Shown here piece by piece: positions 192 through 64,000 of a stretch of 64,000 bases of DNA (position 1 is the stretch's first letter; each line of letters begins with the position of its first letter). Below the pieces are notes generated by a model. It did no database searches and was not told the DNA's origin. It saw only the letters and a list, made by a program, of their open reading frames with translations. Both the position numbers and the translations under genes were made by a program. This stretch comes from Flavobacteriales bacterium (GTDB lineage Bacteria; Bacteroidota; Bacteroidia; CAIKAF01), in the NCBI GenBank assembly GCA_025451235.1, contig JANWKT010000013.1:145317-209316 (forward strand). Direction: 5' to 3'.

Positions 192-296
192 CGCTTTATC
201 TTTAGTTGTTGGTTGTCTGTTGTTAGTTCTTGGTTCCCCGGCGATAAGGGCTAGCAACCAAGAACCAGCAACCAACAACTAAAAGGATGCCGCTGC
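192..296. repeat. Palindromic element with word-repeat arms
   Basis: An inverted repeat lies at 201-283. TTTAGTTGTTGGTTG (201-215) pairs with CAACCAACAACTAAA (269-283), and GTTCTTGGTT (225-234) pairs with AACCAAGAAC (256-265). Each arm is built of short related words (GTTGTTGGTT, GTTCTTGGTT). Outside the arms are CGCTTTATCTTTA (192-204) and TAAAAGGATGCCGCTGC (280-296). Nearly the same two ends bracket an unrelated inverted repeat at 33266-33374. The 48-322 gap holds no gene that I can support. Confidence 0.7.
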
Positions 297-4729: not shown

Positions 4730-4780
4730 CCGACAAACATTCACCAATAAAACTATGATTATGGAGGCGAATACTATTTA

Positions 4781-4859
4781 AGGACGTAGGATGTAGGACT
4801 CAGGATTTCGGACCGACGTTTTTTATCATATGTCTTGCATCCTTGGTCCTACGTCTTTC
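4781..4859. repeat. Imperfect word-repeat inverted repeat
   Basis: The left arm contains GACGTAGGA, TGTAGGA and CAGGA words (from 4781). The right arm, read on the other strand, contains GACGTAGGACCAAGGATGC (right arm 4830-4859). The arms pair imperfectly over about 25 bases. It has the same architecture as the repeats at 201-283 and 15119-15214 but is made of a different word. Confidence 0.55.
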
Positions 4860-4860
4860 A

Positions 4861-6477
4861 TTAATCCACACTATCGTGCAGGAATGAATTATTCTCTCTC
4901 AGCTTATATCCTTCTTCTTTGTCTTCTGACAAGGATAAATTGCTAGCGATGGTTTCTTTGGACTGATCATTCTCTTCCAGTTTTACTCCGTATCTTTCAT
5001 AGGCAGGCTTATTCTCCATTTCTTTTAAACCAGAAGGGGTTTTTAGTTTACGGCTGATCTCCTGCAAACGTTTGATGCGGTCATTCTGTTTGAAGAGAAT
5101 TCCTTTTTCTTCATTCACATTGTCTAATGGCTGAGGAGTTTCTTTTGCAAAATCCACATCATTGAACAAGGCGAATGCATCCACATCCATAGGAGTTGTT
5201 TCTTCTTTTTGGTCTTCGAATAAATTGATCCTTTCTATTTGCTCTTGAGCATTATTGGAAGCGGTGATATCCAAATCGGAGAAAGTATCGATCTTAAATT
5301 CAATGTCATTGGCATCTTTGTTGCCGCCAAAATCCACTGCATCAGGACTTACAAAATAATCGTCCTCCTCTTTTTCAGTTACAATATTGAATTTTTCATT
5401 GTTGATCGCTTCAACGATCTCATCCATGTTTTTGTTGGCCACATCCAATACCACATTCTGATTTTGTTCCAGGTTGATCTGGAAATTATCATCGGCAATG
5501 GATTTGAATCCAGTGGCGATCAGCGTTACACCAATCCGGTTACCAAGACTATGGTCTTTACCTGTTCCAAAGATCACATGCTCATTTTGTCCGGTGATGT
5601 CCCCGATATAATCGGTAATTTCTCCCACTTCATCCATGGTTAATTCTTCATCTCCATAGGTCATGTATAAAAGAATATGTTTTGCACCACGGATATCACT
5701 GTCGTTTAAGAGGGGTGAATTCAATGCTCCTTCAATGGCTTTCAACGCACGGTTTTCCCCTTCGGCATAAGCCGATCCCATAATGGCAGCACCTCCATTG
5801 GTCATCACTGTTTTTACATCTTCAAAATCCACATTGATATAACCTGTAACTGTAATGATCTCTGAAATTCCTTTGGCAGCAGTCGTTAATACATCATCTG
5901 CTTTTCCGAAAGCATTGGTTAGCGACATATTGCTGTATATTTCTCTGAGCTTATCATTGGAAATGATGAGCAAAGTATCTACATGTTTTTTCAATTCATT
6001 GATACCATTTTCTGCTTGTTCTCTTCTTCTGCGACCCTCAAATCCAAAAGGTACGGTAACAATCCCCACGGTGAGGATCCCCATTTCTTTGGCGAGTTTG
6101 GCAATTACAGGAGCAGCACCGGTTCCGGTACCTCCACCCATACCTGCGGTAATGAATACCATTTTGGTATTGGTGGCCAATAATTCTCTTACCTCCTCTA
6201 TACTTTCGAGGGCTGATTTTAAACCGATCTCCGGTTTAGCACCGGCGCCACGGCCTTCGGTAAGACTTTTACCCAATTGTATTTTATTAGGTACAGGGCT
6301 TAATTCGAGTGATTGGTTATCCGTATTACAGATAATAAAATCCACTCCTTTGATCCCCATATTATACATATGGTTAACGGCATTGCTTCCGCCACCACCT
6401 ACACCGATCACCTTAATAATGGATGACTGATCCTTCGGTAATTCGAATTTTATCAGTTCGTTATTTTGGTTTTCCAT
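4861..6477 (-). CDS. ftsZ: Cell division protein FtsZ
   Basis: FtsZ is the tubulin-like GTPase that forms the Z-ring. The GTP-binding domain shows GVGGGGSNAV (26-34), NTDNQSL (51-57) and the tubulin signature GGGTGTG (114-120). The T7-loop region NVDFEDV lies at about 215-221. After the C-terminal polymerisation domain (to about 330) comes a long acidic linker, typical of Bacteroidota FtsZ, which brings the total to 538 residues. The extreme C-terminus, LRENNSFLHDSVD, is the form of the conserved C-terminal peptide that I associate with Bacteroidota and is expected to bind FtsA. It is the last gene of the dcw operon, 43 bases after ftsA, and is followed by a terminator-like hairpin. Confidence 0.98.
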   Translation of the reverse strand: MENQNNELIKFELPKDQSSIIKVIGVGGGGSNAVNHMYNMGIKGVDFIICNTDNQSLELSPVPNKIQLGKSLTEGRGAGAKPEIGLKSALESIEEVRELLATNTKMVFITAGMGGGTGTGAAPVIAKLAKEMGILTVGIVTVPFGFEGRRRREQAENGINELKKHVDTLLIISNDKLREIYSNMSLTNAFGKADDVLTTAAKGISEIITVTGYINVDFEDVKTVMTNGGAAIMGSAYAEGENRALKAIEGALNSPLLNDSDIRGAKHILLYMTYGDEELTMDEVGEITDYIGDITGQNEHVIFGTGKDHSLGNRIGVTLIATGFKSIADDNFQINLEQNQNVVLDVANKNMDEIVEAINNEKFNIVTEKEEDDYFVSPDAVDFGGNKDANDIEFKIDTFSDLDITASNNAQEQIERINLFEDQKEETTPMDVDAFALFNDVDFAKETPQPLDNVNEEKGILFKQNDRIKRLQEISRKLKTPSGLKEMENKPAYERYGVKLEENDQSKETIASNLSLSEDKEEGYKLRENNSFLHDSVD

Positions 6478-15118: not shown

Positions 15119-15214
15119 AGAACCAAGACCTCCGCCTTTTGGCGGATGCAAGAAGCAAGAAACAAGACAGATCCACTCATAAGTCTTGTTTCTTGCTTCT
15201 TATCTCTTGGTTCT
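15119..15214. repeat. Word-repeat inverted repeat between murE and mraY
   Basis: AAGAAGCAAGAAACAAGAC (15150-15168) pairs perfectly with the reverse complement at 15183-15201. The outer AGAACCAAGA (15119-15128) pairs with TCTTGGTTCT (15205-15214). Each arm repeats an (A)GAAACAAGA-type word. A small hairpin TCCGCC-TTTT-GGCGGA (15131-15146) is nested in the left half. The whole lies inside the dcw operon. A 66-codon frame that crosses it (15079-15279) is not credible. Confidence 0.85.
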
Positions 15215-22161: not shown

Positions 22162-22236
22162 AAGGGTTGCCTGGTTTATTCAAGAGGTTAAATGGTAGTA
22201 TAAATATAATCATTTTTTTATTGGAGCATAAAAAAA

Positions 22237-22282
22237 GCCGGAAGACCCTGTCCCGATAACTATTGGGACAGGGTCTTCCGGC
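22237..22282 (-). terminator. Strong bidirectional hairpin terminator
   Basis: GCCGGAAGACCCTGTCCC (22237-22254) pairs perfectly with 22265-22282, an 18-bp stem with a 10-base loop. A-rich sequence lies on the left (T-run on the minus strand) and TTTTT on the right. It ends the three-gene unit that finishes at 22304. The loop and inner stem resemble the common Bacteroidota TCCCGATA-type palindrome, so it may be a repeat used as a terminator. Confidence 0.88.
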
Positions 22283-22303
22283 TTTTTAAAAAAGAAAATG
22301 ATC

Positions 22304-33265: not shown

Positions 33266-33374
33266 CGCTTTATCTTTACAGGTAGGTGTATATTCGAAAA
33301 TCGGCCCTCCTCACAAGCCACATATGCCCCGGAGATTTACTCCTATCCACCTACCTGTAAAGGATACCGCCTGC
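33266..33374. repeat. Palindromic element, second copy of the outer ends
   Basis: The inverted repeat TATCTTTACAGGTAGGTG (33271-33288) pairs with CACCTACCTGTAAAGGATA (33348-33366), with one bulged base. The outer ends are CGCTTTATCTTTA (33266-33278) and TAAAGGATACCGCCTGC (33358-33374). The first is identical and the second nearly so to the ends of the element at 192-296, while the inner arms are unrelated. Confidence 0.75.
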
Positions 33375-45040: not shown

Positions 45041-46429
45041 ATGAGCTACGATTTAATAGTTATAGGAAGTGGTCCCGGTGGTTATGTTGCTGCCATCAGA
45101 GCCTCACAGTTAGGATTAAAAACCGCCATTATTGAAAAGGAATCATTAGGGGGGATCTGTTTGAATTGGGGATGCATACCTACCAAAGCATTATTAAAAA
45201 GTGCCCAGGTGTATGATTATCTTAAACATGCAGGCGATTATGGCTTGAAGGTAAAAGAATGTGAAGTTGAATTTGAAAAAATTATTTCAAGAAGCAGAGA
45301 CGTTGCAGGTGGCATGAGCAAGGGTGTTCAATTCCTGATGAAAAAAAACAATATTGATGTGATCATGGGGGCAGGTAAAATTGTTGCCAAAGGAAAAGTA
45401 GAAGTAACGGCTGCTGATGGATCAAAGAAAAACGTAGACGGAAAAAATATCATTATTGCCACCGGTGGAAGATCGAGGGTATTGCCGAATATTCCGCAGG
45501 ATGGTAAAAAAATAATTGGTTATAGAGAAGCAATGAGTTTGCCGAAACAACCTAAATCTATGGTAGTAATTGGTTCTGGAGCGATAGGTACTGAGTTTTC
45601 TTATTTCTATAATTCTATTGGAACCAAAGTAACCATGGTGGAGTACTTACCGAATGTATTACCGGTGGAGGATGAAGAAGTTTCGAAAACCATGGAGAAG
45701 CTCCTTAAAAAACAGGGAATTGAAATCCTTACGGATGCATCTGTTGAAAAAGTGGATACCAGTGGCACGGGTTGTAAGGTGCTGATCAAAACAAAAAAAG
45801 GGGACCAAACCATTGAATGTGATATTGTTCTTTCTGCAGCAGGCGTGGTAGCCAATATTGAAAATATTGGTTTGGAGGCTATGGGTGTAAAGACAGATAA
45901 AGGCAAAGTGTTGGTGAATGAATATTTACAAACCAATGTACCGGGAATTTATGCGATCGGGGATATTGTCCCAGGTCCGGCATTGGCTCACTTAGCTTCA
46001 CATGAAGGAATTGTTTGTGTGGAAAAAATTGCAGGAAAAAACCCTCATCCGATAGATTATACCAATATTCCCGGTTGTACTTATTGCTGGCCTGAAGTTG
46101 CTTCAGTAGGTTATACCGAAAAGTCGGCAAAAGAAGCAGGCTACGAAATTAAAGTAGGCAAGTTCCCATTTTCAGCCTCTGGTAAAGCAAGTGCGGCTGG
46201 AGCAAAGGATGGATTTGTAAAACTAATATTTGATGCTAAGTATGGGGAGCTGCTGGGAGCTCATATGGTGGGCGCCAATGTTACGGAGATGATTGCTGAG
46301 ATTGTAGTGCTTAGAAAACTTGAAAGTACTGGCCACGAAATTATTTCGGCCATCCATCCGCATCCAACCATGAGTGAAGCGGTGATGGAAGCAGCGGCAG
46401 CGGCTTATGGTGAAGTGATCCATTTATAA
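45041..46429 (+). CDS. lpdA: Dihydrolipoyl dehydrogenase (E3)
   Basis: E3 reoxidises dihydrolipoamide on 2-oxoacid dehydrogenase and glycine cleavage complexes, reducing NAD. The N-terminal FAD motif GSGPGGYVAAI is at 9-19. The redox-active disulfide is Cys 40 and Cys 45 in GGICLNWGCIPTK. The NAD motif VVIGSGAIGTEF is near 178, and the second FAD motif is YAIGDIV near 310. The C-terminal catalytic HPHPTMSE completes the set. Length 462 is typical. It is transcribed away from the E2/acyP/M61 unit. Confidence 0.97.
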   Translation: MSYDLIVIGSGPGGYVAAIRASQLGLKTAIIEKESLGGICLNWGCIPTKALLKSAQVYDYLKHAGDYGLKVKECEVEFEKIISRSRDVAGGMSKGVQFLMKKNNIDVIMGAGKIVAKGKVEVTAADGSKKNVDGKNIIIATGGRSRVLPNIPQDGKKIIGYREAMSLPKQPKSMVVIGSGAIGTEFSYFYNSIGTKVTMVEYLPNVLPVEDEEVSKTMEKLLKKQGIEILTDASVEKVDTSGTGCKVLIKTKKGDQTIECDIVLSAAGVVANIENIGLEAMGVKTDKGKVLVNEYLQTNVPGIYAIGDIVPGPALAHLASHEGIVCVEKIAGKNPHPIDYTNIPGCTYCWPEVASVGYTEKSAKEAGYEIKVGKFPFSASGKASAAGAKDGFVKLIFDAKYGELLGAHMVGANVTEMIAEIVVLRKLESTGHEIISAIHPHPTMSEAVMEAAAAAYGEVIHL

Positions 46430-46524
46430 ATTTGATAATTTGAAGATGCGCCCATTTGAAAATGATAAACTTACAAGATATCCTCATGTCAAATTTTCAA
46501 ATGGTCAAATTTTCAAATTGATAA
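46427..46524. repeat. Word-repeat inverted repeat between lpdA and asnB
   Basis: The right arm (46486-46524) repeats TCAAATTTTCAAATgg-type words. The left arm (46427-46470) repeats ATTTGA and ATTTGAAAA words, with an insertion of seven bases relative to the right. The arms pair over about 35 bases. The left arm begins inside the lpdA stop codon and the right arm runs to one base before the asnB ATG, so the element fills the whole gap. Confidence 0.8.
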
Positions 46525-46525
46525 C

Positions 46526-48400
46526 ATGTGTGGAATAGCGGGGATCATAGCTATCCATGAAAATGGACGAAGATCATTCGGACAACTCCCCGGGGCTCTA
46601 AAAACACTTGCGAAAAGAGGCCCCGATCATGAAGGCTTATTTGAGAATGAACATGTGGCCTTAGGCCACCGGCGTCTATCCATTCTGGATTTAAGTATGG
46701 AAGCATCTCAGCCAATGCATAGTTCCAATGGGCGATATGTAATTATTTTTAACGGCGAGATCTTTAATTATAAAGAATTAAAATCACAACTGGTAAAGGA
46801 TGGATTTGCTTTTACGACTGGCTCGGACACGGAGGTACTATTAAATCTTTATATAGCACATGGTGCTGAATGCATCAACCAACTCAACGGATTTTTTTCT
46901 TTTTGTATTTATGACAAGGAAGAAAAAAAAGGGATCATCGTAAGAGACCGGTATGGTATCAAGCCACTGGTCTATTATCAGCAGGATTATTCGATTTTTT
47001 TCGCATCTGAATTGAAGGCACTGGTATCAATGGGAATTCCCAAACTGCTTAACCAGGATGTTCTTCCTTATTATTTTTCCTTGGGATATATTCCAGCTCC
47101 TAACTCCATCTATAAAAATGTTTTTAAACTGGAACCGGGTAATTATATTGAATTTAAAGTGGGTGCCGGAACTGAAGTGAAAAAATATTACGACCTGCCG
47201 TTTCGCACTGTTCCGGATGCATCAAATATAAATTATGAGGAGGCAAAAGCTCACCTTAGAAAATTAATATCGGATGCTGTAAAAATCAGACTGGTAGCAG
47301 ATGTACCGGTAGGAGCATTTTTAAGTGGCGGAGTGGATTCATCGATCATTTGCGCAGCAGCGAGTGAACATACTTCCAAACTTCATACGTTTTCCATTGG
47401 ATTTAGCGGGAATTCTTATATCGATGAGGGTAAATATGCCAAAATGGTCGCTGAACATCTGGGGACCACCCATACGCTGTTTGATCTGGATGAGGATGAA
47501 ATGCTGAATGACCTGGAAAATGTGCTGAACTATTTGGATGAACCTTTTGCTGATTCATCCTCTATTGCGGTGTATGCTTTAAGTAAACTCACTTCTGAAA
47601 AAGTGAAGGTAAGTCTTTCGGGTGATGGAGGTGATGAGCTTTTTGCCGGATATAGAAAGCATAAAGCGGAATGGATGATTAGACATCAAGCTGGAAAAAG
47701 GCGGCTGGGAAGAATGTTGGCTCCCATTGTAAAAAATGTGGCAGGTTCAAGAGAAAATTCAGCCGGCGACCTTCTGAGAAAGATCAGGAAATTTTCGGAG
47801 ATCGCATCCAAAGGACCTCAAGGGAGATACCTTCACCTGGCCTCGTTTGTTCCCTCGGATGAATTGGATTGGTTACATATTGGGAAATTTAATAATAATT
47901 TAAGAATAAGAATCTCGGAACGAGGAAATGATTTAAGCGACTTTCTCTGGAATGATATCAAGCTGGTGTTGTCAAATGATATGCTGCACAAGGTAGACAT
48001 GATGAGTATGGCCAATTCTTTGGAGGTAAGAGTACCCCTTCTGGACTACAGGATTGTTGATTATGTGAATGGCTTACCGGACTCCTTTAAAATTGACAAA
48101 AACAGGGCAAAAAAACTTCTATGGGATTGCTATTCAGATAAGTTACCTGCCGAAATTTATGAAAGACGGAAAATGGGTTTTGAAGTTCCTATGGAGAAAT
48201 GGCTTAGGGGAAGGATGCAACCAATGTTGGCTGACCTAACATCTTCCAATAAGATGAACCACCAGTTAATTGACCTAAGCTATATTGAAAAACTGTTACG
48301 AGGTTTGAATAATAAAGGAGAAATAAGTAACTTAGGATTTAGGTTATGGTCAATATTGGTTTTTCAATATTGGTTTTTGAAGAACAACCCGACACTGTAA
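46526..48400 (+). CDS. asnB: Asparagine synthase, glutamine-hydrolysing
   Basis: This amidotransferase moves the glutamine amide to a carboxylate via an AMP intermediate. The N-terminal class II glutaminase domain starts at the nucleophile Cys 2 (MCGIAGIIA), with NGEIFN at 76-81. The synthetase domain has the PP-loop SGGVDSS at 267-273 and LSGDGGDELFAGY near 375. Length 624 fits. It leads an exopolysaccharide cluster, where AsnB paralogues are common and may amidate uronic-acid or other carboxylate groups instead of aspartate. The alternative is an ordinary housekeeping enzyme. Confidence 0.92.
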   Translation: MCGIAGIIAIHENGRRSFGQLPGALKTLAKRGPDHEGLFENEHVALGHRRLSILDLSMEASQPMHSSNGRYVIIFNGEIFNYKELKSQLVKDGFAFTTGSDTEVLLNLYIAHGAECINQLNGFFSFCIYDKEEKKGIIVRDRYGIKPLVYYQQDYSIFFASELKALVSMGIPKLLNQDVLPYYFSLGYIPAPNSIYKNVFKLEPGNYIEFKVGAGTEVKKYYDLPFRTVPDASNINYEEAKAHLRKLISDAVKIRLVADVPVGAFLSGGVDSSIICAAASEHTSKLHTFSIGFSGNSYIDEGKYAKMVAEHLGTTHTLFDLDEDEMLNDLENVLNYLDEPFADSSSIAVYALSKLTSEKVKVSLSGDGGDELFAGYRKHKAEWMIRHQAGKRRLGRMLAPIVKNVAGSRENSAGDLLRKIRKFSEIASKGPQGRYLHLASFVPSDELDWLHIGKFNNNLRIRISERGNDLSDFLWNDIKLVLSNDMLHKVDMMSMANSLEVRVPLLDYRIVDYVNGLPDSFKIDKNRAKKLLWDCYSDKLPAEIYERRKMGFEVPMEKWLRGRMQPMLADLTSSNKMNHQLIDLSYIEKLLRGLNNKGEISNLGFRLWSILVFQYWFLKNNPTL

Positions 48401-54520: not shown

Positions 54521-55466
54521 GCAAAAGAACATATTGATCATGGTGGTGGCTTTTTTTGTAACCATACTGTTATTGCAATCTTATTTTATTTACAACTTGT
54601 ATGACGGGAAAGGGAATACAAAAACATCCTCTACAGATACTACCAATGCAGGAGTAGTGGATGATAAGAATGAATTGCGAAAAATTACCCTGGCTCCTCT
54701 ACCTCCCAAAATGGATTTTTGTGGAGAAGAAGTTCCATTGAATGATCCCGAAGTTTTTGAAAGGATGGAATTTGAATGGATAGCAGCGCAAAACAGAACC
54801 ACAGCCAATTGGATCATTTTAAAAAGATCAACACGTTATTTCCCTATCATCGAACCTATATTAAAGAAAAATGGTATACCTGATGATTTTAAATACCTGG
54901 CGGTTGCTGAAAGTAATTTGGCCAACGTAATTTCTCCTTCTTACGCGGAAGGCTTCTGGCAATTTTTGCAGGAAACCGGGTCTGCTTTCGGACTTGAAAT
55001 AAGCAAGACCGTAGATGAGAGATATGATGTGGCCAAGGCTACAGAAGCTGCCTGTAAATACCTCAAAGCAGCCCATGGTATGTTTGAAAACTGGACCTTG
55101 GCAGCGGCCTCTTATAATATGGGGCAAGGTGGACTGGCCGATGAAATGGAAGTACAGCAGCAAAATGATTATTATAAGCTCCGCTTAAATCCAGAAACAT
55201 CCAAATATTTATTTAGGATCATTACCTGGAAATATATTATTGGAAATCCTTCATCCATAGGTATGGTATGGAAACCCGAAATGGGACAAAAAATGCCTGC
55301 CACCAAAACTGTAAAAGTTTCCAGTACGATCAATGACCTTGTTCAATGGAGCATTCAGCAAGGAACTGACTATAGGATGGTGAAATACCTGAATCCATGG
55401 ATAAGAGGTGGAAAGTTGGAAGTAAGGGCTGGTAAAACCTTTGATGTATTGCTCCCAGCAAAATAA
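54507..55466 (+). CDS. Lytic transglycosylase (MltD-like, SLT domain)
   Basis: The 319-residue protein has a membrane anchor (about 9-31), a low-complexity linker and an SLT domain (about 100-240). The catalytic Glu lies in YLAVAESNLAN (about 135), followed by SPSYAEGFWQFLQETGSAFGL and the AAASYNMGQGGL motif. A LysM-like remnant may cover the last 55 residues (KTVKVSSTINDLVQWSIQQG...). It cleaves the glycan strand of peptidoglycan and could open a path for the polysaccharide export machine. Overlap with the preceding gene supports co-translation. Confidence 0.9.
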   Translation: MTQSKQKNILIMVVAFFVTILLLQSYFIYNLYDGKGNTKTSSTDTTNAGVVDDKNELRKITLAPLPPKMDFCGEEVPLNDPEVFERMEFEWIAAQNRTTANWIILKRSTRYFPIIEPILKKNGIPDDFKYLAVAESNLANVISPSYAEGFWQFLQETGSAFGLEISKTVDERYDVAKATEAACKYLKAAHGMFENWTLAAASYNMGQGGLADEMEVQQQNDYYKLRLNPETSKYLFRIITWKYIIGNPSSIGMVWKPEMGQKMPATKTVKVSSTINDLVQWSIQQGTDYRMVKYLNPWIRGGKLEVRAGKTFDVLLPAK

Positions 55467-55469
55467 AAC

Positions 55470-55506
55470 AATTTGAAATTGATTTAAATACTCAATTTTT
55501 CAAATT
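55470..55506. repeat. Small inverted repeat between convergent genes
   Basis: AATTTGAAATTGA (55470-55482) pairs with TCAATTTTTCAAATT (55492-55506), apart from a two-base difference in the A-tract. It is made of the same ATTTGAAA word as the 46427-46524 repeat, and ends at the stop codon of the next gene. It may serve as a terminator. Confidence 0.6.
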
Positions 55507-57910
55507 ACCGTCCTCCACCCACTCTGTCGAAGAGTGCATCTTTGTCTTTTTGATTATCTTCTTTGATCCTTCTGCCGAATTTAAAGCTGGCTGAAAAAGT
55601 AAGGCGACGGCTATCCCATCTGAACGTGCTGTTCACGGTTTGTCCATCTTCGGTGGTGGTAGTACTCCGGAACGGTGTAGTGAGGAAAAGATCGGTGGCA
55701 CCTATCTTCAATGTAAGCTGTTCTTTGAAAAACTTTTTGGAAACTCCAATACCTACTTCTCCCATTGGTTGAGTAACCGATTGACCGTAGGGTTGCTGGG
55801 TCATTGCGTAGCCATTGAGTTCAATCGTGAATTTAGCAGGTAAAGTAAATTCCACATAGGCACTGAACATTCCATACCATCCCTGACGGTTGATATTTAG
55901 ATTTGTGTCGACTACGCTGTTGTATATAGCGCTTCCATTCAGCATGAAGTAGCACCATTTACCTATAGGCATCATCCATGTTCCACCTGCGGTATAATTA
56001 TGTGTTTCGCCTAAGTTGGTATTTGTATAGATCAATCGCTGTGAATTGAGTGAATCTATTCGGAAAATATCCGTTAAGTTATTATTGATCTGTGTATAGG
56101 AGGTGGTAATGGTGAATGCCTGAAACATGGTATAGTTCAACTCAATATTATTGGAGAACATCGGCAGCAAATTTGGATTTCCCTGATAACTGCTATAGTT
56201 ATCCATGGTATAAATAAATGGATTTAACTCGTTGTATTCCGGACGATCAATCCGGCGGCTATACATAAAATTAATGGAGTGATTATCGCTTGGATTCCAG
56301 GCAATACCCGCAGAAGGGAATAAACTGAAATAATTCTGACGGTTCACCTGTCCGGTGGTTACCTGCCTGCCGGTTGTGTTGGTATGCTCACCTCTCAATC
56401 CTGCGGAAAAAGACCATTTTTTTACATTGTATTTCAACGAAAGATAAATGGCGTTGATGTTCTCCTCATAAATGAAATGATTACTCATGGAAGGAATGGG
56501 GATCTCATTGTTACCTGTATCCCAGGTTCTGTATTGAACATTGGCTTCATTGGTAACATAACTTGATTTGATACCTGTTTCCAGTTTTAATTTTTTGAAT
56601 ACATGCGGATTTTCATAATCCAATTTCCCTGACACAAGATATAGAGCCGGCGCCTGCTGGTAATTCATATCAGGAGAACTTCGGAACTCCTGGCCCCATT
56701 GGTCATAAAAATAATACTGGTAATTTCCTTTTACAAATTCAAGATAGGTGCCTCCATCCGCGTTGATGCTGAATTTTTGTCCCAATGAATCGATTTTCCA
56801 CTGCGTATTTAAATTGAAGGTAACGCTATAGTTGGTCCATGCTGTGCTATCCAAAACAGCCTGTGTTGAATCAACTGTCCCTGAAGTTAAATTGGTGAAA
56901 GTAGAGCGTGTACGTCCTTTCCAATTGGCATGACCTGCATTGAAAGTAATTCCGGTTCCCAATATCCATTTTTTACTGATATCGTAATCGATATTAAATT
57001 TCACGTTATGACTATTTTCAATAGGCTGTCCTTTATATATCTGGGCATAACCTGTACTATCGAGAATACGTTCTGAACTGGGTTGGATAATCCCATGCCA
57101 ATGGGTAAAAGAATAACTTCCGAAAATATTCCATTTACCTTTTCCATAGTTGAAGCTAAAGCTTCCGCCCCCCTTGGGATAGATACCTTGAATATACCAT
57201 CCTTCTAGATTTCCATTGAAGCCCAAGGCAATTTTTTTAATGAGGGTGATATTGATGATACCGGCATTTCCTTCGGCATCATAATTAGCTCCCGGTTGGG
57301 TAATTACTTCGATCTTGCTAATGTTTGTGGCTACCAATGTTTTTAGAAAATTTTTGAGCAGGGTTCCACTTAAATAGGTTGGACGTCCATCAATGTAAAC
57401 ATTCACTCCACTCTTTCCTTTGATGGAAATATTTCCATCATTATCAACAAATACCCCGGGCATTCTTCTTAACATATCCAACGCGTTATTACCGGCGGTT
57501 AAAGTGGAGTTTTCGAGGATCATGATCACTTTACCAGGTTCAAATTCAATTTTATTGGTCTTTACATCCAGTGTAAACTCATTTAGTGTTTTAGTGGATT
57601 GGGTCATTACAATTCGGATCGTATCCTTGTGATCGGTATTGATCACTGCACTGGAGGTATCAATGTAACCAACTACAGTGGCTTTCACAAAATAAGAAGG
57701 ATAGGCAACATGGGTAAATTCAAATCTTCCATTGGCATCAGTGGCGGTTCCCACATATTGGTTGGAATCAGCAACATTGGTAAGAAGTATGGCAACAAAC
57801 TCTAAGGGCTTCCCTTCGGTATCCGTTACCACACCATGGCAGGTATGTTGAGAATAGACTTTTACAAAAAGCGAAAGAATGAAAATGAGGAGTAGTGGTT
57901 TTTTACTCAT
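55505..57910 (-). CDS. TonB-dependent / outer-membrane beta-barrel family protein
   Basis: The 801-residue protein has a signal peptide (MSKKPLLLIFILSLFVKVYSQ) and a CarboxypepD_reg-like domain (about 22-100: TCHGVVTDTEGKPLEFVAILL). A plug-like domain follows (about 120-225: DMLRRMPGVFVDNDGNISIKGKSGVNVYIDG), then the OMP_b-brl_3 type barrel (to about 780). It ends RIKEDNQKDKDALFDRVGGGR rather than with an aromatic residue, as some members of this family do. Ligand unknown. I chose ATG 57910; the longer frame to 57955 puts 15 non-signal residues in front. Confidence 0.9.
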   Translation of the reverse strand: MSKKPLLLIFILSLFVKVYSQHTCHGVVTDTEGKPLEFVAILLTNVADSNQYVGTATDANGRFEFTHVAYPSYFVKATVVGYIDTSSAVINTDHKDTIRIVMTQSTKTLNEFTLDVKTNKIEFEPGKVIMILENSTLTAGNNALDMLRRMPGVFVDNDGNISIKGKSGVNVYIDGRPTYLSGTLLKNFLKTLVATNISKIEVITQPGANYDAEGNAGIINITLIKKIALGFNGNLEGWYIQGIYPKGGGSFSFNYGKGKWNIFGSYSFTHWHGIIQPSSERILDSTGYAQIYKGQPIENSHNVKFNIDYDISKKWILGTGITFNAGHANWKGRTRSTFTNLTSGTVDSTQAVLDSTAWTNYSVTFNLNTQWKIDSLGQKFSINADGGTYLEFVKGNYQYYFYDQWGQEFRSSPDMNYQQAPALYLVSGKLDYENPHVFKKLKLETGIKSSYVTNEANVQYRTWDTGNNEIPIPSMSNHFIYEENINAIYLSLKYNVKKWSFSAGLRGEHTNTTGRQVTTGQVNRQNYFSLFPSAGIAWNPSDNHSINFMYSRRIDRPEYNELNPFIYTMDNYSSYQGNPNLLPMFSNNIELNYTMFQAFTITTSYTQINNNLTDIFRIDSLNSQRLIYTNTNLGETHNYTAGGTWMMPIGKWCYFMLNGSAIYNSVVDTNLNINRQGWYGMFSAYVEFTLPAKFTIELNGYAMTQQPYGQSVTQPMGEVGIGVSKKFFKEQLTLKIGATDLFLTTPFRSTTTTEDGQTVNSTFRWDSRRLTFSASFKFGRRIKEDNQKDKDALFDRVGGGR

Positions 57911-62233: not shown

Positions 62234-63420
62234 TAGAATCTCTTTCCTTCCCGTACCATTTTCCTCAATTGGGTACTTGCCCTGTATCTGTCTTCATGGT
62301 ATTCCGCATATAAACGGTCCATGGTATCGTGGCAATGTTGGATTCCCATTTCATCCGCCCATTTCAATAAACCTTTGGGATAATTCACTCCTTTGGTCAT
62401 CGCCAGGTCGATATCATCTCGGGTGGCTATATTCAGATACAAAGCATCCGCCGCTTCATTGATGAGCATGACCAAGATCCTCCAGGAAATATGTTGGCCC
62501 AGCTCTTCGTCTTTATTAGGTTCAGGTGCTATGGCCCCTTCTGAATAATCATAATATCCTTTTCCGGATTTACGGCCTAACCTTTTTGCTTCTACCATTC
62601 TTTTTTGTGTGAATGATGGTTTATACCTGGGATCATTCCAGAATTCTTTATAAACAGTTTCGGTAACGGTGTAATTGATATCATTGCCGATAAAATCCAT
62701 TAATTCAAATGGACCCATTTTAAATCCACCATAGGTTTTTACCGCCCAGTCGATAGTAGCAAAATCAGCAAATCCTTCTTCATAAATGCGGATGGCTTCA
62801 CCATAAAATGGACGTGCAATTCTGTTCACAATAAATCCAGGAGTATCTTTAGCGACAACAGTTACTTTTCCCCAGCTATCAATTATTTTTCGGGCATTGA
62901 CTAATATTTGGGGATCTGTATCTACTCCCGGTATAATTTCTACCAGGGGCATGATAGTAGCTGGATTAAAAAAATGAATGCCTACAAATCTTTGTGGTTG
63001 TAGGCAAGAGGCTGCAATGGCTGTAATGGATAAGGAAGAAGTATTGGAGGCAAGTATACAATCATCAGTTACGATCGACTCGATCTTTTCAAAGATCTCC
63101 TGCTTTACTTGCAAATTTTCTACGATCGCTTCAATAACCAAATTACATTCCTTAAAACTATCAAGGTGAGAAACAAAATGAATATTCTTTTTGATGGAAT
63201 CTGCTTTATCTCTGGAGATTTTTTCTTTTTCAACTAACCTGGAAAGATTTTTATCCAATCCTTGATGGAATTTATCAGAGGACCCAACGGCAGTATCATA
63301 GATCACCACTTCGTTACCTGCAGTTGCCGCTACTTCTGCAATCCCTGATCCCATGGCACCTGCGCCTATGATTCCTACTTTAGATTTGGTTGATAGTTGT
63401 TGGTTGATAGTTGTTGGCAT
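62230..63420 (-). CDS. 3-hydroxyacyl-CoA dehydrogenase (PaaH-like)
   Basis: The 396-residue enzyme oxidises 3-hydroxyacyl-CoA with NAD. The Rossmann motif KVGIIGAGAMGSGIAEVAA is at 14-32. VIEAIVENLQVKQEIF (about 95-110), the catalytic-site ASNTSSLSIT and VGIHFFNPATIMPLVEII (His near 147) follow, then two C-terminal helical domains. Length suits the PaaH or FadB-like stand-alone group with a second partial HAD domain. The first 12 residues (MPTTINQQLSTK) are encoded by the left arm of the repeat beside the S23 gene, and no other ATG precedes the Rossmann motif. Its stop overlaps that of the convergent PNGase F-like gene within TTAA. Confidence 0.93.
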   Translation of the reverse strand: MPTTINQQLSTKSKVGIIGAGAMGSGIAEVAATAGNEVVIYDTAVGSSDKFHQGLDKNLSRLVEKEKISRDKADSIKKNIHFVSHLDSFKECNLVIEAIVENLQVKQEIFEKIESIVTDDCILASNTSSLSITAIAASCLQPQRFVGIHFFNPATIMPLVEIIPGVDTDPQILVNARKIIDSWGKVTVVAKDTPGFIVNRIARPFYGEAIRIYEEGFADFATIDWAVKTYGGFKMGPFELMDFIGNDINYTVTETVYKEFWNDPRYKPSFTQKRMVEAKRLGRKSGKGYYDYSEGAIAPEPNKDEELGQHISWRILVMLINEAADALYLNIATRDDIDLAMTKGVNYPKGLLKWADEMGIQHCHDTMDRLYAEYHEDRYRASTQLRKMVREGKRFY

Positions 63421-63828
63421 TTTCTATTTGAGTTTGTCGTAATAATTGATAAATCCATTTAATAATTTTTTACAAGCCGTTATTTTTTCCAAGATTGTGT
63501 TGAGCATGGGCTCGTCAAAATAACCTTGATCGAATGCCAAATATAGTTGTGTTTCCAACTCAAACAAAGAACCTCGACTAATATGAAGAAATTGAATAGA
63601 TTCCTTGGTATGATTTCGACCGCACCCCTCAGCAATATTTGATGGGATAGAAATAGCGGCCTTTCTCATTTGTGCTGTTAACCCAAAGAGTTCCTCTTTT
63701 GGGAACTTCTTGGTTACATCATAAACTATTACAACCAAATTTCTGGATTCTTTCCAAACATCTAACTCAATATATGTTTTGTAGCCCATGTTTTGATCTA
63801 ACAACCAACAACTAACAACCAATAACAA
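63388..63828. mobile_element. Putative S23-gene element bounded by word-repeat inverted repeats
   Basis: The left arm (63388-63417) is two copies of GGTTGATAGTTGTT with trailing GG. The right arm (63799-63828), read on the other strand, is TTGTTATTGGTTGTTAG followed by TTGTTGGTTGTTAG. The arms pair as GTTGTTGG / CCAACAAC words. They enclose the S23 gene exactly, between the enoyl-CoA hydratase stop (63829) and the dehydrogenase start (63420). Whether the unit moves is inference; no transposase or target duplication was identified. Confidence 0.45.
63424..63789 (-). CDS. S23 / IVP four-helix-bundle protein
   Basis: The 121-residue protein matches the four-helix-bundle family first seen as the product of 23S rRNA intervening sequences, also related to the Avd proteins of diversity-generating retroelements. 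Pattern: LDVWKESRNLVVIVYDVTKKFPKEELFGLT near the N-terminus, QMRKAAISIPSNIAEGCGR (about 40-58), then FLHISRGSLFELETQL. The frame runs up to 63828, but the extra 13 residues are read from the repeat arm; ATG 63789 (MGYKTY) gives the family start. It interrupts an otherwise metabolic gene pair on the same strand. The molecular function of stand-alone members is unknown. Confidence 0.92.
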   Translation of the reverse strand: MGYKTYIELDVWKESRNLVVIVYDVTKKFPKEELFGLTAQMRKAAISIPSNIAEGCGRNHTKESIQFLHISRGSLFELETQLYLAFDQGYFDEPMLNTILEKITACKKLLNGFINYYDKLK

Positions 63829-64000
63829 TCATTCTCCTTTAAAAATGGGTTTCCGTTTTTCCAAAAATGCTTTTACTCCCTCTTTATGATCATGTGAATT
63901 AGAAGCTTCCTCCTGTAAGAGAGCTTCCAATTTTAATTGTTCCTGCAGATCGTTACTCAAGCCCTGGTTAATGGCTCTCTTGGTAAGACCCAAACCCATG
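63829..64000 (-). CDS. Enoyl-CoA hydratase/isomerase (PaaG-like), C-terminal part
   Basis: The frame enters from the right edge and ends at the stop 63829-63831. The visible 56 residues include LGLTKRAINQGLSNDLQEQL, then LEALLQEEASNSHDHKEGVKAFLEKRKPIFKGE. This is the characteristic end of crotonase-family enzymes, close to PaaG-type 1,2-epoxyphenylacetyl-CoA isomerases (ADHREGV.AFLEKR.P.FKG). Together with the PaaH-like and PaaI-like genes it hints at phenylacetate degradation, although general beta-oxidation cannot be excluded. The S23 gene follows after 39 bases. Confidence 0.88.
   Translation of the reverse strand, partial: MGLGLTKRAINQGLSNDLQEQLKLEALLQEEASNSHDHKEGVKAFLEKRKPIFKGE

Follow-up and report, generated by a model that had tools for sequence, protein, structure and literature searches.

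Intervening sequences (IVSs) of 23S rRNA that carry an S23/IVP open reading frame (ORF) occur in Coxiella, Leptospira, Xanthomonas and Brucella. To our knowledge, the S23/IVP proteins have gone without a function for the ~30 years that they have been known, and the origin of the 23S rRNA IVSs is an open question. In the Coxiella 23S rRNA copy, the IVS is 428 to 444 nt long, its 5' arm contains GACAGAT heptamers and RNase III cuts within the stem; S23 itself is described as without known function (PMC4990558).

We analyzed a 64-kb stretch of a Flavobacteriales genome (the window) and interpret its wordy hairpins as being of the same kind as the rRNA IVSs, in a non-rRNA form. Our main reading, to which we give a probability of about 0.7, is that the inverted repeats are arms of S23 elements or the gene-less remnants of these elements, with each S23 lineage having its own word. 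In both, the S23 ORF runs in the direction of the host transcript, between complementary arms that can pair into a long stem, and the lengths are similar; the 5' arm of the Coxiella copy also has heptameric direct repeats. The host differs, being here the junction between two genes of an mRNA operon, or a Flavo-1-like RNA, rather than 23S rRNA; cutting by RNase III is known from Coxiella and may occur here; and heptad words coupled to the S23 lineage are found here in well over a hundred loci, versus one. The window copy has an ORF matching PF05635/TIGR02436, long-stem complementary arms and arm heptamers, and we file it as a non-rRNA variant rather than a classic rRNA IVS because it lies between an enoyl-CoA hydratase-like gene and a 3-hydroxyacyl-CoA dehydrogenase (3HCDH) gene.

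Other described systems share parts of this design. Avd of the diversity-generating retroelements has the same four-helix fold family as S23, but S23 needs no RT/TR/VR partner, and the window S23, at 27.3 bits, falls short of the Avd model cut-off, which is 80. MITEs and REP/RAYT systems also place short gene-less palindromes alongside a gene-bearing copy with cognate ends, whereas S23 elements have no known transposase, Y1 is absent from the S23-rich genome G024 and the arms are degenerate tandem heptads. The TAACTGA repeats of Beggiatoaceae, Cyanobacteria and some Bacteroidetes are intergenic 7-nt tandem words adjoining start codons, but they consist of a single exact word, are direct rather than inverted and have no reported S23 gene (PMC4679880). 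Flavo-1 RNA (RF01705) supplies the frame for the hairpin at 201–283 and several other solo hairpins; this frame is conserved and nonperiodic, while the words are confined to the apical hairpin. In the openly accessible literature, we found no description of heptad arms as a general S23 feature. Although the heptamer array of one rRNA copy (Coxiella) is already published, the general heptad-word rule and the lineage coupling appear to be new. An arm rule that holds outside rRNA and in many phyla opens direct tests of the nucleic acid ligand of S23 and of the need for binding in movement, and it explains a large set of unannotated Bacteroidota hairpins, suggesting that these record earlier visits of S23 elements; a lineage-specific word would also give S23 a testable job, that of reading the word.

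Hairpins of the window and of the source genome

The initial annotation had proposed an inverted-repeat design common to several places of the window, with differing vocabularies. The design was retained for four solo hairpins, none assigned to a strand, and for the arms of the S23 gene. The gene-less hairpin at 201..283 has words of the GTTGnnn family and caps, as apical hairpin, a Flavo-1-like RNA frame at 190–296 on the minus strand; this frame scores 20.8 bits against RF01705, for which the Rfam gathering score is 42. The hairpin at 4775..4863 abuts the ftsZ stop codon and has words GACnnAG, matching those of S23 locus L002 in the source genome; the hairpin at 15119..15214 lies in the murE–mraY gap and has words AAGAAnC, matching the S23 locus L004. 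This gap is closed in the same-genus genome G001 and nearly all relatives, and in G029 and G036 it is occupied by full-length S23 genes. The hairpin at 46421..46528 abuts a dehydrogenase stop codon; its 8-nt words, nATTTGAn, match the S23 element L105 of the family member G006, and an orthologous hairpin is found in G001. In comparison with dinucleotide shuffles, RNA folding of the four hairpins gave z scores of –6.2, –4.1, –8.7 and –3.9 in the order above, and that of the S23 unit –4.6. The design did not extend to 55470..55506, an AT-rich weak palindrome (AATTTGAAATTGA/TCAATTTTTCAAATT; no strand) between convergent genes, which we rejected as a family member: its z score is –1.8 and 10 of 200 shuffles fold equally well, the chance level for an AT-rich sequence.

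Two further structures were observed in the window. The near-perfect 27-bp hairpin at 22232–22287 (AAAAAGCCGGAAGACC...) is probably a bidirectional terminator, and a similar frame at 33266–33370 (CGCT.TATCTTT ... AAAGGATACCGC) encloses a nonperiodic hairpin, CTTTACAGGTAGGTG, and has no convincing match in Rfam.

The source genome (G000) is 4.28 Mb long in 46 contigs, and we scanned 464 kb of it, consisting of the window and 400 kb of sampled stretches, for inverted repeats with periodic arms. Of 26 strong hairpins, 12 were internally periodic, 8 at lag 7 and 2 at lag 8, while three dinucleotide-shuffle sets of the scanned sequence contained no periodic hairpins. Chance or base composition as the origin is ruled out by these shuffles (0 versus 12) and by the scores of random intervals (0.23 versus 65% for S23 loci; see below). 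The words had been described as locus specific, and the vocabularies do differ between loci; however, the GTTGnnn word of 201–283 and of the S23 gene in the window forms inverted pairs at ~8 genomic places, and the words therefore define families, of which the 64-kb window reveals just one or two members each.

The proposed common design is real and can now be specified: the arm unit is a degenerate 7-nt word, inverted between the arms. Identity at lag 7 was 0.57–0.60 versus 0.32 in shuffled arms (z = 28), with more peaks at 14 and 21, and the best lag was 7 in 50 and 8 in 15 of 69 loci. The number of words per arm has its maximum at four to five. Within an array, ~4 positions are nearly fixed and ~3 variable, and mismatches avoid the word core beyond a uniform null (0.214 versus 0.144, SD 0.005); uniform slippage is excluded, as the mismatches are unevenly spread over the word. 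The arm strand reading into the element is C-poor (11% C, 24% G), with G exceeding C in 57 of 65 loci. Permuting the word order dropped the best-register arm score from 37.6 to 29.3 (SD 0.9), which speaks against the arms being complementary simply through having one word in common but is supportive only, because the tested loci were picked by alignment score.

S23 elements and the lineage of their words

The S23 (23S_rRNA_IVP) gene of the window, encoding a four-helix bundle protein, lies on the minus strand at 63424..63789 with its ATG at 63789, and matches PF05635 (4e-39) and TIGR02436 (127.9 bits). Its AlphaFold model has a pLDDT of 93 and the best Foldseek match is 2gsc; matches of the fold were limited to 2gsc, 2rld and Avd, including the Avd of the RT–Avd complex 8ub7. 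The entries 2gsc and 2rld, each deposited with five chains, are S23 structures. In the sense of the gene, the 5' arm (ATTGTTATTGGTTGTTAGTTGTTGGTTGTTAG; minus strand, 63798..63831) is complementary to the 3' arm (CCAACAACTATCAACCAACAACTATCAACC; minus strand, 63386..63417). The 3' arm doubles as coding sequence for an N-terminal extension, MPTTINYQPTTINYQPK, of the downstream 3HCDH ORF, and the insertion of the element displaced the 3HCDH start codon. The site of the element is empty in G001.

According to the initial annotation, the connection to S23 was only that one copy happened to contain the gene. This turned out to be wrong: six of the seven PF05635 genes of the source genome have wordy inverted arms, as do about two-thirds or more of the S23 genes elsewhere, in comparison with 0.2% of random intervals. 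The vocabularies of the six armed genes all differ (GTTGTTGGTTGATA, GACGTAAGACT, TTCAAGATTCAATG, AGAACCAAGAAGCAAGA, GTTATCCGTTATCC and GAAGTCGGAAG). In one S23 locus of the genome, L007, the gene is truncated to 68 aa while the arms are intact, plausibly an intermediate en route to a solo hairpin. The only one of the seven without arms, L006, is a 160-aa ORF of the S23 family (L006:810–1292) near a contig end, followed by several copies of TAGGACGGGAGTTACTCGGCTCGGCTGCGCC.

Arms were found in 89 of the 114 S23 loci of the source genome and its relatives, called at P < 0.05 against the arms of mismatched loci. For the 80 closest S23 relatives from named genomes, arms were found in 21 of 28 Bacteroidota loci and in 47 of 52 loci from other groups (Patescibacteria, Omnitrophota, Deltaproteobacteria, Atribacterota and others), the latter counts including L242, a run of N that is to be disregarded. 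An alignment score of at least 29 was reached by 65% of S23 loci and by 0.23% of random 330-bp intervals. Most of the ~190 S23 loci, which come from many phyla, have such arms on either side, and about a quarter of the loci, L006 included, have no detectable arm pair. S23 genes with very long arms, of 10 to 16 or more heptads, were observed in Saprospiraceae and Prevotellaceae (L231 and L226; TTATTCG and AGTAATT).

The words follow the S23 lineage. Word similarity is flat at S23 identities below 50% and climbs above 50%. After pairs sharing a flanking gene were removed, nearest neighbors at least 55% identical had a word similarity of 0.606, versus 0.462 (SD 0.014) in a permutation null; as the link persists at different sites, orthology of the sites is ruled out as its only cause. 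S23 proteins closely related to that of the window (52–66% identical), from Siphonobacter, Kordia, Chryseobacterium, Aquimarina, Ferruginibacter, Chitinophagaceae and Flammeovirgaceae, have GTTG-type words, although some of their arms are weak. Some close S23 pairs are exceptions, such as L226/L250, in which the S23 proteins are 86% identical and the words differ. The words had been ascribed to a copying process that generates them locally. This finds no support in our data: the words descend together with the S23 protein, even where the genomic sites are unrelated, and solo hairpins reuse the S23 words of their own genome.

Among the alignment columns scanned, a single one, the residue immediately after NIAEG, predicted how similar the words are over and above overall identity (r = 0.264; in 95% of the permutations the maximum was below 0.13). 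With groups phased by an eye-level consensus, Phe at this position goes with many G-N-N-T words, Ser often with AAG/TAG and Cys often with GTTG; the window S23 has Cys (NIAEG-C; minus strand, 63622–63624), which the covariation scan marks as a candidate word-reading residue. That the residue tracks word specificity is suggestive and not proof, because relatedness was removed in part only, and the covariation of the words stays confounded by phylogeny despite the correction for overall identity.

Insertion sites and solo hairpins

In the surveyed loci, the ORF mostly has the sense of the host transcript: S23 and its upstream neighbor are co-directional in 130:16 (n = 146) and S23 and its downstream neighbor in 128:13 cases. 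The elements have a median length of 474 bp, start a median of 3 nt past the upstream stop codon and end a median of 9 nt before the next ATG. Survivorship can account for much of this operon-junction pattern, because an insert in a tight operon is tolerated in the gap only. All five comparable S23 sites were empty in G001, indicating gain or clean loss, and no target-site duplication was found in the filled/empty pairs, which have a flank identity of 67–85% and junctions blurred by small edits. Long vertical residence is also common, because many elements share one operon junction across families (71 same-site pairs from different families; median S23 identity 0.51). Naming the junctions by reading the flanking proteins, we found the sdhA–sdhB junction occupied in four genomes; as the S23 genes there are only 35–50% identical and their words unrelated, a junction can be filled more than once. 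At the shared junctions sufB–sufC and ctfA–ctfB, the S23 genes are more alike than at sdhA–sdhB. No S23 gene inside rRNA was found among six other loci tested. In Chryseobacterium (L180), and at L178, L181 and L051, an S23 element was seen to lie between apparent N-terminal and C-terminal portions of the methionine synthase MetH, which form separate ORFs.

Word change at fixed sites was seen between G000 and G001 at two places, and slippage may contribute to it. At the 3' side of ftsZ, the orthologous site of G001 has a co-located hairpin whose words have drifted within one class; in the C14:103095 gap, the hairpin words are TTCAAGG in G000 (L277) and ACGAAC in G001:C247 (L292), and both drift and replacement by another element fit the difference.

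Solo hairpins share words with the S23 elements of their own genome far more than with those of other genomes (296 versus a null of 197.6; SD 15.3; 0 of 5,000 draws). Several GTTG solos, 201–283 of the window included, are apical hairpins within Flavo-1-like RNA frames. In the sampled stretches, four Flavo-1 RNAs were above the Rfam threshold (L261:15366–15519, L264:15630–15781, L266:3718–3913 and L270:1886–2024); their apical hairpins are long and variable, and two of the four have S23-type words. A looser local pattern identified seven Flavo-1 frames in 464 kb, while a genome search with a spaced frame pattern gave zero matches, its gap limits probably being too tight. Among the Flavo-1 copies, the frame is constant and the apical word differs from copy to copy, as if the word had been inserted into a loop that tolerates it. 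At G000:C19:112640–112800 (L312), the arms of a GTTG hairpin are very unequal, with ~3 versus ~11 words, which may reflect word expansion.

Proposed mechanism and its alternatives

In the mechanism that we propose, the full element of ~475 bp consists of a short S23/IVP four-helix-bundle ORF between a 5' arm and a 3' arm that are complementary to each other, with ~4–5 copies per arm of a degenerate 7-nt word that has ~4 conserved and ~3 variable nucleotides. S23 probably recognizes its own word, and a pentamer would bind the array of cognate words in either DNA or RNA. Within the host-operon transcript, the arms would pair and leave the S23 ORF in the loop, and RNase III may cleave the paired arms, as it does in the 23S rRNA IVSs. 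The element would spread to sites tolerating a stem-loop, such as operon junctions and the apical loops of structured RNAs, and on loss of the gene, a solo hairpin would remain and drift slowly. A ring of S23 with approximately one word per subunit would make an attractive picture, because both 2gsc and 2rld were deposited with five chains. Going further, S23 proteins may be word-specific nucleic-acid-binding rings, the pentamer reading approximately five 7-nt words per arm and the residue after NIAEG tuning the specificity, with recognition driving the spread of pan-bacterial tiny selfish elements that have no known recombinase, transposase or reverse transcriptase; we put this forward tentatively, as less likely than not.

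The arms could also be the terminal inverted repeats of a DNA transposon-like element, moved as double-stranded DNA by S23 or an S23-aided host enzyme, with the solos as its MITEs; on identity this is a subcase of the S23-element explanation and on mechanism a rival to it. Inverted arms at both ends, cognate pairing of gene and ends, empty sites, solo derivatives and the symmetrical word polarity of the two arms all agree with such an element, but no target-site duplication was seen at the comparable sites, whose junctions are blurred, and S23 matches only 2gsc, 2rld and Avd and has no known catalytic fold. The co-directional pattern at operon junctions is also unusual for DNA transposons, though selection could produce it, and we consider this mechanism rather unlikely. 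A requirement for the Y1 transposase (PF01797) was rejected, as G024, with 12 S23 genes, has no match, nor do G030 and G038. Movement by a reverse transcriptase acting in trans, in the manner of Avd and the RT of diversity-generating retroelements, draws on the four-helix fold that S23 shares with Avd, as in 8ub7, and on a weak match of S23 to the Avd family. PF00078, however, has matches in just 12 of the 40 relatives and is missing from G023, G027, G028, G029, G035 and G039, which have 6–11 S23 genes each, and we consider this route very unlikely.

Replication slippage with template switching at hairpins (quasipalindrome correction) could build the arms without any protein that reads the word, heptamers arising from a preference of slippage for ~7 nt and copying within the hairpin keeping the arms complementary. 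Heptanucleotide repeats are, by the account of Mrazek 2007 given in PMC4679880, the commonest longer simple repeats in many genomes and were linked there to slippage of the polymerase; the heptamer number differs among Coxiella strains (PMC4990558), the arms of the solo at C19:112640 are of very different lengths, and orthologous solos of G000 and G001 differ in words. Slippage does not, however, predict structures tied to S23 genes, words that track the S23 lineage over unrelated sites, mismatches concentrated outside the word core or a residue of S23 that tracks the word, and as the main process, we regard it as improbable. That the hairpins are ordinary transcription terminators, mRNA stabilizers or parts of known regulatory RNAs is in keeping with those at 4775 and 46421 directly following stop codons and with 201–283 being the apical hairpin of a Flavo-1-like frame. 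The hairpins, though, are not followed by a U tract, as judged by eye, and scans of two ranges for intrinsic terminators (a GC-rich stem with a U tract) flagged only an ORF-internal stem within 63300–63900 and, within 55400–55600, a stem other than the palindrome. Ordinary RNA signals would leave the period of seven, the S23 gene, the lineage words and the empty orthologous sites unexplained, and the change of Flavo-1 words between copies under a constant frame resembles insertion; we hold this explanation to be very unlikely.

The source genome has a single match to the reverse transcriptase family PF00078, at G000:C13:134340–134882, ~11 kb before the window.
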